DNA of 38,506 nucleotides from Anaerolineae bacterium (GTDB lineage: Bacteria; Chloroflexota; Anaerolineae; Epilineales; Epilineaceae), in assembly GCA_029262755.1 (NCBI GenBank), contig JAJCYU010000156.1:1-38506 (forward strand), in the 5' to 3' direction. The position numbers were made by a program, and so were the translations under genes. Under the pieces are notes generated by a model. That model was not told the origin of the DNA and ran no database searches. It saw nothing but the letters and a program-made list of their open reading frames with translations. Below are positions 26,656 to 38,371 of this stretch, piece by piece. Each line of letters opens with the position of its first letter. The stretch's first letter is position 1.

Positions 26656-26684
26656 TTGGCCGGCCATGGGGCGCGGCTTATAAT
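26656..26684 (+). promoter_or_regulatory. Promoter for the coiled-coil/selB/glycosyltransferase operon
   Basis: TTGGCC (-35, 26656-26661), 17-bp spacer, TATAAT (-10, 26679-26684, perfect match). It would start transcription near 26691, about 50 nt before the ATG at 26743. One of the clearest sigma-70-like promoters in the window. Confidence 0.65.
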
Positions 26685-35204: not shown

Positions 35205-36259
35205 GCCCCGCCGCGGACTCGCCGTCGCCGATGTCACCGCCCAATTCCGACCCGAGCGACTCGATCGACCCCGCTACGAACCCCGCAATCGACCCCTCCA
35301 CCGACCACGCGATGGACCCCGCAGCCCGCGCCCGCGCCAACGCGCGCCGCGCGGACGGCAGCGTCGGTCCGCTGATCGAGATCTCCGTGCCGGCCGAAGG
35401 GGAGCTCGTCGAGCCGCTCTACGAGCTCTTCGTGCGCCACGGCGCGGGCGCCGCCATCGAGACCCGACTGCGCGACGACGTCTCCGGTGCGCCCGACGCG
35501 CCCGAAACGTGGGTGCGCACGTGGATCGCCGCCGACGACGCGGACGCGCGCACCGCCATCGAAACCGGTCTGTGGCATCTGGGCCGCATCCTGCCGCTGC
35601 CCGAAGCCACGGTGCGCGAGCTCGCCGAGGCCAACTGGGCCGAGGCGTGGAAGGCCCATTGGACCGCACAGCCGGTCGGGCCCTTCCTGATCACACCCAC
35701 CTGGCTCGATCCCGAGTCCACCGACCCCGACCGCCTGCCGCTACGCCTCGATCCCGGCACCGCGTTCGGCACGGGCCAGCACCCCACGACCCGCCTGTGC
35801 CTCGAAGCCGTGGCGGAAGCGGTGGCCGAAGCGCCCAACGCGCGCGTGCTCGATGTCGGCACGGGCAGCGGGATCCTCGCCATCGGCGCCCGCCTGCTCG
35901 GCGCGCGCGAAGTGCTCGGCGTCGACATCGACCCACGCGCCGCGGAGACGGCCGCCGCCAACGCGGCCGCCAACGGTGTGCCCTTCCCCACCCGCGCCGG
36001 TTCGCTGGACGTGGTGGAGACCGAGCCGCCCTTCGACATCGTGCTGGCCAACCTGCTGGCGCCCATCGTCATCGAGCTCGCGCCCGGCATGGCCGCACGC
36101 ACACGCACCGGCGGCCTGCTCATCGCCTCGGGCGTGCTCGACACGCAGGTCGACGAGGTCACCGCAGCCCTACGCACGGCCGGCTTCGGCGAAGCGGAGG
36201 TGCGCTCGGACGGCGATTGGGTGGCCATCCTGACCCGCAAGGAGCCGCCCGGCGCATGA
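35201..36259 (+). CDS. prmA: Ribosomal protein L11 methyltransferase PrmA
   Basis: SAM-dependent methyltransferase that trimethylates ribosomal protein L11. The L11-recognition N-domain (PLIEISVPAEGELVEPLYELF, EANWAEAWKAHW) is joined to the Rossmann domain with DPGTAFGTGQHPTTRLCLE, VLDVGTGSGILAIGA and LANLLAPIVIELAP. The first about 50 residues (SDSIDPATNPAIDPSTDHAM) are a low-complexity extension absent from the family, whose members are about 290-315 long; this is 352. Reads through a GTGA overlap from dnaJ and an ATGA overlap into rsmE. The dnaJ-prmA-rsmE order is common in bacteria. Confidence 0.95.
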   Translation: MSPAADSPSPMSPPNSDPSDSIDPATNPAIDPSTDHAMDPAARARANARRADGSVGPLIEISVPAEGELVEPLYELFVRHGAGAAIETRLRDDVSGAPDAPETWVRTWIAADDADARTAIETGLWHLGRILPLPEATVRELAEANWAEAWKAHWTAQPVGPFLITPTWLDPESTDPDRLPLRLDPGTAFGTGQHPTTRLCLEAVAEAVAEAPNARVLDVGTGSGILAIGARLLGAREVLGVDIDPRAAETAAANAAANGVPFPTRAGSLDVVETEPPFDIVLANLLAPIVIELAPGMAARTRTGGLLIASGVLDTQVDEVTAALRTAGFGEAEVRSDGDWVAILTRKEPPGA

Positions 36260-37029
36260 GCCAGCCGCCCTCGTTGCGCCTCTTTGTCCCCTTGGAGAGC
36301 CTGGTCGACGGCCGCCTGCGCCTCGCCGGCGGCCCCGCCACCCGCGCCTACCTGCGCGGCGCCCGCCCCCAGCGCATGCTCTTCGCATTGGACGGCGCGG
36401 GCTGGCAGCACGAGGTCGCCATCGAGCACGCCTCGTGGGAGCGCATCGAGGGGCAGGTGATCACGCGCAGGCTCGCTCCGGAACGGCGCACCAAGATCTC
36501 GCTGCACCAGGGCCTCCTGCTCCCCGCCGACTCGCGCCGTCTGGTCTTTGCTGCCGCGGCCGCCGGCGTTGTGTCCTTCGCTCCGCTCATCACCGACCAC
36601 AGCGTCCTTCCGGGTCTGGACGCCGCCACGGACGATCTGGTCGATCTCGCGGAGCTGGCGCTCGAGGGCGCGGAGATCGCCGGCCGCGGACGTCGCCCCG
36701 CCCTACGCGAGCCCGCCCTCTTCGACCGCGCCCTGGATGAAGCCGAACGTGCCGGTGAATCGATCGTGCTGGTGGACCCCCAGGGCAAATCCTTTTCGGA
36801 GGCCACCGACCGCCGCCCCTTCGCCCTCGCCCTTCTCTGCCCACCCCCGGACGGCTTCTCCACCGCCGAACGCGAGCGCGCCGTAGAGCGCGGAGCCACA
36901 GTGCTCGCGGTGCCGCCCGATTCTCTACCCGATTCCGTAGCGGCTCCTTCCCGGCCGCTCCGCCTTGCGCTCGCCGCACTCGACCTGCTCTATGCGAGCC
37001 TCGAACCCGACAACTTCGAATCTGTTTGA
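36256..37029 (+). CDS. rsmE: RsmE-like 16S rRNA m3U1498 methyltransferase, divergent
   Basis: A 257-residue protein, the last 257 codons of a long ORF whose earlier part is only a shadow of dnaJ/prmA. It is in the rsmE position after prmA. The N-terminal PUA-like domain is recognisable (LRLFVPLESLVDGRLRLAGG, ATRAYLRGARPQ), and ISLHQGLLLPADSRRLVFAA matches the start of the SPOUT domain in outline. The SAM-binding knot motifs are degraded: the usual GPEGGF reads CPPPDGF, and the LGxRILRTETA segment is replaced by VPPDSLPDSVAAPSRPLRLA. It may have altered or no catalytic activity. The ATG at 36256 overlaps the prmA stop. Confidence 0.75.
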   Translation: MSQPPSLRLFVPLESLVDGRLRLAGGPATRAYLRGARPQRMLFALDGAGWQHEVAIEHASWERIEGQVITRRLAPERRTKISLHQGLLLPADSRRLVFAAAAAGVVSFAPLITDHSVLPGLDAATDDLVDLAELALEGAEIAGRGRRPALREPALFDRALDEAERAGESIVLVDPQGKSFSEATDRRPFALALLCPPPDGFSTAERERAVERGATVLAVPPDSLPDSVAAPSRPLRLALAALDLLYASLEPDNFESV

Positions 37030-37055
37030 CCCACCGCCGGCCGGCATCGTATAAT
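37026..37055 (+). promoter_or_regulatory. Strong promoter for the hypothetical gene pair
   Basis: TTGACC (-35, five of six, overlapping the rsmE stop), 18-bp spacer, TATAAT (-10, perfect). It would start near 37062, about 64 nt before the ATG at 37126. The best consensus promoter in the window. Confidence 0.7.
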
Positions 37056-37125
37056 CGCAAGGTTGTGTCTGGCCCCGGCCGAGCGCACCGTTGCGCCGGC
37101 CTTTCCGAGAGGCGACTGTTCCAAT

Positions 37126-37878
37126 ATGCCCAATCGCATTGACACGCCCGAATACTGGATCGAAGACTTCCAGCCGCAGAAAGAAGAACTCGCCGCGTTG
37201 GAAGCGCATATGCTCGAGACGTTGGCCCCGGCCGGCGTCGAGACCTTGGCCGGCTTGCTCATCCGCGGCCGCGTAGACCGCGCCTTGGCTTCCCGCAAGA
37301 AGGCCGCGGACGGCAAGGGTGTTCCCTACATGCCCACCGATAGCTACGAGAAGGGCCAATCTCTTGTCTTCCCGGCCCTCGATGGAGCCAAGGGCACCAT
37401 CGGCAAGGTGCGCAAAGGCAACAACCCGATGTACGGCGATTACCAAGTGCTGTCGGTCAAGATCGGCAGCGACGCGCGTGAGTTCGCAGCCGGCATCGGC
37501 TGGGACCACGCTCTGACGTCCACCCAAGCGGATCTGGACGCGGACCTGCTCGTCGACCGCTACGCCTCCGTCATCGCGCCCCAACTGCGCGAGCGGCTGC
37601 ACGGCACGGGCGACTGGCTCGGCGCCGGCAACAGCTGGATCCTCAAGTCCTTGCTGCCCGAGGTCAACGCGGGTCATCGCAACCTGGCCGAGGCCATCCT
37701 TATGCTTGCCAACGAGCCGCTGAGCGCCGACAAGCTGCTCGACGAGATTGATCTGGACGGCTCCGTGTCCGAAGAGTCACGTCGCCTCGCGTTGGAGCTG
37801 GCCCTCGAAGACGACAAACGATTCCGCAACGTGGGCGCGATCGAGTCGCCTCTCTGGACGCTCGACTCCCAGACCTAG
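37126..37878 (+). CDS. Conserved hypothetical protein with SH3-like middle and HARE-HTH-like C-terminus
   Basis: A 250-residue cytoplasmic protein. An N-terminal helical part (EYWIEDFQPQKEELAALEAH) leads into a beta-rich segment YMPTDSYEKGQSLVFPALDG, GKVRKGNNPMYGDYQVLSV, EFAAGIGWDHAL that looks like a small barrel. The C-terminal LAEAILMLANEPLSADKLL, then LALELALEDDKRFRNVG and WTL, follows a HARE-HTH/winged-helix pattern. I recall similar proteins in Chloroflexota but cannot name a family. The ATG at 37126 was chosen because the longer ORF start (37063) would begin at about the predicted transcription start. Likely role: transcription- or nucleic-acid-associated factor (inference). Confidence 0.7.
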   Translation: MPNRIDTPEYWIEDFQPQKEELAALEAHMLETLAPAGVETLAGLLIRGRVDRALASRKKAADGKGVPYMPTDSYEKGQSLVFPALDGAKGTIGKVRKGNNPMYGDYQVLSVKIGSDAREFAAGIGWDHALTSTQADLDADLLVDRYASVIAPQLRERLHGTGDWLGAGNSWILKSLLPEVNAGHRNLAEAILMLANEPLSADKLLDEIDLDGSVSEESRRLALELALEDDKRFRNVGAIESPLWTLDSQT

Positions 37879-37960
37879 CCGCGTCGACCGCACTACACCG
37901 ACGCGCTTCTCGTTCTCGCCTCGCGGGCCTCTCGGCCACGCCGCATCCCCTGGACGGACT

Positions 37961-38371
37961 ATGCACGCTCTCGCGGATATCTCGACCCCCTTCCACATCG
38001 ACTTCGACTGGTGGCGGAGGAACGAGCGCAACCTCGGCCGTTTCCTCTCCGAGATTCTCGGCGAGCAGACCCCGGAGCTGCCCTCCGAGGATGCCATCGA
38101 CTACATCGACCCTCACACCGCCGAGGTCCACCAACTCGATCCGCTGTGGGTCAAGGTCCTTGTCCAGCGCGCTCACCAGCCCGACTTCATAACATCCGGC
38201 ACACCCATGACCAGCGCCGTCCTGCGCGCGCTCGTCGAGAACCGCAACGTGCCGATGTCCCCCGTGGAACTGCAGCGCCGCATCAACCGCTCCACCCCGG
38301 AGACCATCCTGCGCGTGCTGCGCACCGCCCAGCAGCGCTACGGCATCTTCCCGATCGAGCGCACCGCGTAG
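37961..38371 (+). CDS. Conserved hypothetical protein with DFDWW motif and winged-helix-like C-terminus
   Basis: A 136-residue protein starting at the ATG at 37961; the ORF-track start at 37748 lies inside the preceding gene. The N-terminus has FHIDFDWWRRNERNLGRFL, then DYIDPHTAEVHQLDPLW. The C-terminal half (SAVLRALVENRNVPMSPVEL, then INRSTPETILRVLRTAQ and YGIFPI) has the spacing of a helix-turn-helix. Trp/Asp residues are unusually concentrated in the N-terminal motif. It sits 82 nt after the previous gene in the same direction, probably co-transcribed. I recall related Chloroflexota proteins; function unknown. Confidence 0.7.
   Translation: MHALADISTPFHIDFDWWRRNERNLGRFLSEILGEQTPELPSEDAIDYIDPHTAEVHQLDPLWVKVLVQRAHQPDFITSGTPMTSAVLRALVENRNVPMSPVELQRRINRSTPETILRVLRTAQQRYGIFPIERTA

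Follow-up and report, generated by a model that had tools for sequence, protein, structure and literature searches.

HARE-HTH fusion proteins of restriction and modification systems were reportedly described by Aravind and Iyer in 2012, and B3 domains are otherwise known in restriction enzymes and in transcription factors of plants. It has been proposed that HARE-HTH domains read modified DNA (PMC11037411), and the RNA polymerase delta subunit has been described as Firmicutes-specific (PMC11156646). Here we describe two adjacent genes of the chloroflexotal class Anaerolineae, ORF1 and ORF2, which resemble components of a DNA-binding or transcription complex not yet described. The window, i.e. 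the whole stretch of DNA that was analyzed, has 38,506 nucleotides and is one contig (C156) in full; the assembly is fragmented and 84% complete, and the contig stops 135 bases past ORF2, so that the region 3' of the pair is unreadable. The pair and its upstream neighbour lie as follows.

36256..37029, + strand: rsmE, 16S rRNA methyltransferase gene (PF04452, Pfam E 6.4e-9); upstream neighbour, outside the module
37026..37055, + strand: promoter TTGACC-18-TATAAT, 11/12 consensus (-35 TTGACC at 37026-37031, -10 TATAAT at 37050-37055)
37126..37878, + strand: ORF1 (P0001, 250 aa), ATG start; short form of an SH3-HARE protein, without the B3 half; homologues in 54/60 relatives
37961..38371, + strand: ORF2 (P0002, 136 aa), ATG start; homologues in 55/60 relatives

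Judged by these homologues, whose frames are mostly intact in 54 and 55 of the 60 relatives respectively, ORF1 and ORF2 are real genes. An earlier note on this DNA could assign neither of them, and the profile and sequence libraries do not name them either: neither protein has a significant match in Pfam, NCBIfam, PHROGs, PADLOC or the PDB sequences. A viral fold library gave no convincing match, and literature searches turned up no account of such a gene pair.

Both genes are present in 53 of the 60 relatives, and their co-presence and co-absence is significant (Fisher p 1.5e-4). Four relatives lack both (G003, G047, and G017 and G052 of family f15); a joint loss in family f15 is likely, as both of its sampled members, one of them 96% complete, are without the pair. 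The three relatives with only one of the genes appear to reflect contig ends, because of the position of the surviving gene. In a sample of 251 Chloroflexota genomes, all 31 Anaerolineae had both genes, and the pair is single-copy, with one copy per genome. A scan of genome contigs with the window protein alone returned no matches. When 84,980 species genomes were scanned with an ORF2 alignment, 407 loci came up, and all but one of the best 80 were titled Anaerolineae, Anaerolineales, Caldilineaceae, Litorilinea, Bellilinea, Ardenticatenia or Chloroflexi/Chloroflexota. Beyond Chloroflexota the distribution was covered by this contig scan (best 80 of the 407 loci) and by searches of plasmids, phages and viruses, in which no copy of the pair was found.

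The earlier note had named a lack of conserved adjacency in other genomes as the result that would speak against a functional unit. Across 120 loci, the two genes were adjacent, on the same strand and with ORF1 first, at all 118 where both could be read; in the remaining two, ORF2 sits at the edge of its contig, with ORF1 unreadable. Overlaps of 4 bases occur at three loci. Gene trees group the sequences by family (8/8 families tested for ORF1, 7/8 for ORF2, the exception being poorly supported). It is near certain that this is a conserved two-gene module of Anaerolineae. No other neighbour is conserved, the larger neighbour clusters in the 120 loci being antisense or out-of-frame ORFs lying over the pair itself; apart from ORF1 and ORF2, real genes recur in about 20 of the 120 loci at most, and gene neighbourhood was therefore rejected as a clue to function.

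Outside Anaerolineae, the same 251-genome sample had an ORF1-like gene alone in 32 genomes and an ORF2-like gene alone in 34, and both in none. The homologues that the earlier note placed in Chloroflexota are thus there, and the part of its claim that saw a module stands, in that the pair co-occurs and adjoins across Anaerolineae; the module is not one of the phylum, however, since elsewhere in Chloroflexota the families stand apart, which makes the pairing a trait of the class. As each family is found outside the class without a detectable copy of the other, either could work alone. The ORF1-like proteins elsewhere in the phylum (540-725 aa) are alike over model positions ~150 to 516, covering the HARE, B3 and C-terminal winged-helix regions, but differ by having another N-terminus. 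Ten of their loci (L172-L181, e.g. L175:7460-9445 and L177:7768-9480) have the ORF1-like gene followed mostly by HEAT-repeat-like and LmbE/PIG-L-like deacetylase genes (named from translations); this operon-like arrangement may be undescribed as well. The ORF2-like proteins have the N-terminal signature region in common with ORF2, and likewise the Cys set and the helix-turn-helix, while their genes, unlike those of the Anaerolineae pair, stand without ORF1, as in the further Chloroflexota lineages of L162-L171 (e.g. L164:9060-9590 and L167:8301-8792); in L164 and L167 they lie directly 3' of yebC and a rhomboid-like gene.

In the window the pair follows the genes hrcA-dnaJ-prmA-rsmE (named from translations, rsmE by PF04452), an order also present in both other genomes of the same family; the pair sits after prmA-rsmE in 3/3 genomes of that family. 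The stop codon of rsmE (37027-37029) falls within the -35 box of the promoter of the pair. This promoter had been singled out earlier as the best consensus promoter of the window, and the coordinates proved correct: with 11/12 it is the top-scoring sigma-70-like site in the 38,506 nt, where the sole other such site is TTGGCC-17-TATAAT at 26656. Its strength is a feature of the class as well, for a promoter-like site of at least 10/12 was found upstream of ORF1 in 65 of 101 non-redundant regions, compared with 33 of 484 other ORFs from the same loci that served as controls (p 2e-35), a ratio that is only rough since the starts of the control ORFs are mechanical first starts. A near-consensus promoter throughout the class suggests that the pair would be highly expressed. 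When aligned, the 65 ORF1 promoters read TTTGTCAA-n-TGGTATAAT, and conservation is restricted to the -35, extended -10 and -10 elements. The recurrent TTTGTCAA -35 with its extended -10 (TGGTATAAT) could be the consensus of the Anaerolineae housekeeping sigma factor.

A two-gene operon whose B3 and helix-turn-helix domains can be sequence-specific might encode a conventional regulator with its co-regulator, acting on a limited regulon or on its own promoter. Nevertheless, no conserved operator beyond the promoter elements lies beside the 65 aligned promoters, no neighbouring target gene is conserved in the 120 loci, and near-universal presence would be unusual for such regulators; we consider this reading improbable.

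Most ORF1 homologues have about 530 residues, about twice the window form, and this class-typical form includes a B3-like domain. The 250-aa ORF1 of the window's order is one clade in the gene tree, and the B3 half is lost in that order. The possibility that the missing half is encoded elsewhere in the genome was considered, and neither a second ORF1 copy nor a detached C-terminal half was found in this 84%-complete assembly. The structure of ORF1 was read from the AlphaFold model of a long homologue, L084 (pLDDT 94.6, pTM 0.84), which is 35% identical to P0001, and not from P0001 itself, which aligns to L084 model positions 4-259 only. The predicted domain order in L084 is N-terminal helices, an SH3-like barrel (~66-135), a helix and hairpin, a winged helix (193-257), a B3-like barrel (~313-446) and a C-terminal winged helix. 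An origin of the C-terminal half by duplication of the N-terminal one found no support (hhalign 1.1%). The SH3-like barrel and HARE-HTH-like C-terminus that had been proposed for ORF1 are both seen in this homologue's model, and the window protein has the following parts.

37126..37311, + strand: ORF1 residues 1-62, acidic helical N-terminal domain (alignment to the L084 AlphaFold model)
37321..37521, + strand: ORF1 residues 66-132, SH3-like beta barrel (L084 strands E79-82, E88-100, E103-113, E119-124; chromo-barrel Foldseek matches)
37675..37866, + strand: ORF1 residues 184-247, HARE-like winged helix, acidic (pI 4.4; hhalign 90.4%; TIGR04567 match of L131)

The top four Foldseek matches of L084 were plant B3 domains (prob 0.99-1.00, TMt 0.56-0.69, E 0.01-0.08), and the next were B3 domains of bacterial restriction enzymes, including R.NgoAVII and LlaJI. 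Further matches were to RNAP delta (8x6g_E, prob 0.89, TMt 0.61) and MSL3 chromo-barrels, with weak ones to the SH3-like domains of EF-P and IF5A; no match reached E 0.001 for either the ORF1 homologue or the ORF2 model. The B3 domain was placed at L084 313-446 from the order of secondary-structure elements, as the Foldseek table came without query residues. A B3 fold is predicted in the long relatives only and is not present in P0001; by sequence, Pfam gave no B3 match in 52 members.

The R.NgoAVII and LlaJI matches would fit a role in anti-phage defence, whether in restriction, in the sensing of DNA modification or otherwise, given that restriction enzymes contain HARE-HTH, B3 and winged-helix domains and that the genuine HARE-HTH domains of Anaerolineae sit in restriction-like proteins. 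Such a role is very improbable: a nuclease or methyltransferase domain is absent from both proteins and from conserved neighbours, PADLOC has no match, no phage, plasmid or viral copies turned up, and the pair is near-universal, single-copy and inherited true to family, not patchy or mobile. The weak EF-P/IF5A matches, along with the rsmE neighbourhood in the window's family, could instead point to an RNA-binding pair in translation or RNA metabolism, in which the SH3-like barrel would bind RNA. However, the rsmE neighbourhood is not kept outside that family, the pair has its own promoter, and the combination of HARE, B3 and helix-turn-helix is typical of DNA and transcription proteins, so that we would call this reading quite improbable.

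For the HARE-like domain, a profile was made of B. subtilis delta (identical in sequence to the PDB chains) and HARE domains of Anaerolineae. Against this profile, the ORF1 185-262 block gave an hhalign value of 90.4% (score 35.7), while 100 column-shuffled controls reached at most 3.2% (score 16.8) and no other domain of the pair exceeded 45%. One ORF1 relative, L131, matches the delta model TIGR04567 with residues 198-267 (23.3 bits, E 5.6e-5), below the 42-bit cut-off; acidic low complexity was rejected as the source of this match, for these residues cover the HARE-like domain. The other 51 aligned members, P0001 included, had no TIGR04567 match at E 0.1, and PF05066 matched neither P0001 (E up to 10) nor any of 25 relatives (E up to 1) or 52 relatives (E up to 0.5). 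The sole above-cut-off PF05066 match in this genome is L187 (G000:C234:6598-6819), a small gene among short ORFs on another contig. The L084 model contains the three helices and beta wing (H193-206, H212-219, H227-239, E244-246, E255-257). HARE-HTH domains have an extra helix inserted in the helix-turn-helix (PMC11037411); DSSP assigned L084 no helix of at least 4 residues between H212-219 and H227-239, where a shorter turn is possible. There is no delta-type disordered acidic tail, as P0001 ends right after the HARE-like domain and the L084 model is without a disordered tail, and acidic residues number at most 14 per 40 in any aligned ORF1 member. Because the tail is absent and the curated score is not reached, we call the domain HARE-like and not a delta subunit.

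In ORF2, two features stand out.

37991..38014, + strand: ORF2 residues 11-18, FHIDFDWW signature (F11, H12, I13, D14, W17 and W18 invariant in 49 aligned sequences)
38198..38353, + strand: ORF2 residues 80-131, basic helix-turn-helix (pI 11.7; AlphaFold helices 83-93, 101-108, 113-127 and strand 129-131, pLDDT mostly 91-97)

The DFDWW motif of the earlier note lies in this signature, and its helix-turn-helix-like C-terminus appears as a tri-helical helix-turn-helix in the ORF2 AlphaFold model (pLDDT 86.2). Predicted structures without helix-turn-helix folds would have counted against the proposed unit; the HARE-like winged helix in the ORF1 homologue and the helix-turn-helix in ORF2 were both modelled. 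The fold search with ORF2 gave weak helix-turn-helix matches only, and weak Pfam matches to HTH_20 and WH_GDS1 fall at the same positions. A Cys set (CxxC/H ... C) is present in 111 of 120 ORF2 relatives, jointly gone in 8 and partly in 1, and hence is not the conserved ligand set of a metal-binding helix-turn-helix throughout. It is missing from the window's family, and was lost jointly in several lineages (ORF2 of L042, L043, L065, L070, L071, L135, L150, L151 and the window); this loss as a unit is as expected of a putative metal site.

The charges are unevenly spread over the pair. Most of ORF1, and the whole of the window's short form, is acidic; the HARE-like domain has a median pI of 4.6 (4.4 in the window), the B3 domain is basic (pI 9.3), and ORF2 combines an acidic N-terminal half with a basic helix-turn-helix (median pI 9.5, 11.7 in the window). 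Acidity of the HARE-like domain against basicity of the B3 domain and the ORF2 helix-turn-helix suggests that the former docks a protein and the latter two hold DNA; with no B3 in the window's order, it is mainly ORF2 that could hold DNA there. With several DNA-binding-type domains in one long protein, basic B3 and helix-turn-helix domains, a near-universal core presence in the class and a strong promoter that suggests abundance, the two proteins might also be a nucleoid-associated architectural pair that binds the chromosome broadly without contacting RNA polymerase, the HARE-like and SH3-like domains serving for oligomerisation or bridging. We regard this as rather unlikely, because ORF1 is mostly acidic, and wholly so in the window's short form, unlike typical nucleoid proteins, and because B3 domains are usually sequence-specific (PMC4267653).

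A role in transcription is the best of several readings, and we tentatively favour the view that the pair is a core-genome operon of Anaerolineae encoding a chromosomal, transcription-associated DNA-binding complex. The acidic HARE domain of ORF1 would dock a protein partner, plausibly RNA polymerase, and the hold on DNA would fall to the basic helix-turn-helix of ORF2, joined in most Anaerolineae by ORF1 through its basic B3 domain; in the window's order, where the B3 half was lost, ORF2 would supply the DNA contact. The two proteins would act together at high copy number, and their effect could be a tuning of promoter use or of polymerase occupancy across the genome, not at a single gene. 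Against this reading stand the absence of transcription machinery genes among the neighbours (120 loci), the lack of any member matched by PF05066, the delta-model match below cut-off and no Foldseek match at E 0.001, as well as the occurrence of each family alone outside the class and a window ORF1 without the basic B3. A more specific version, possible but doubtful, is a class-specific, constitutive RNA polymerase accessory factor in which a delta-like HARE domain, an SH3 barrel and a plant-type B3 domain are joined with a dedicated helix-turn-helix partner, the whole being polymerase-bound and DNA-anchoring, with the B3 arm lost in the window's order.

Anaerolineae abound in soils, sediments and wastewater, and to our knowledge their transcription machinery has been little studied. 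A near-universal, strongly promoted pair that joins a polymerase-type HARE to a B3 domain is a candidate, open to test, for a core part of transcription or of chromosome organisation that has so far been missing in the class. If the more specific version is true, the Anaerolineae would have an RNA polymerase accessory complex without counterpart in model bacteria.

Each of the known systems shares only a part of this design. With the RNA polymerase delta subunit (RpoE of Firmicutes; TIGR04567 / PF05066), ORF1 shares an equally acidic HARE-like winged helix, by profile similarity and fold match, but it scores below the curated threshold, has no long acidic disordered tail, and adds an N-terminal helical domain, an SH3-like barrel and a dedicated partner gene, to which the long forms add the B3 domain and a second winged helix. 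Like the HARE-HTH fusion proteins of restriction and modification systems, ORF1 joins a HARE-like domain to other DNA-related domains; unlike them, the pair has neither a catalytic domain nor a defence context, and is near-universal and single-copy. Finally, the long ORF1 relatives resemble the B3 proteins (plant VAL1 and VRN1, R.NgoAVII and LlaJI) in the fold of a domain that is basic there, whereas ORF1 has no nuclease domain and no B3 sequence match, P0001 is without the B3 half, and the gene belongs to the chromosomal core.
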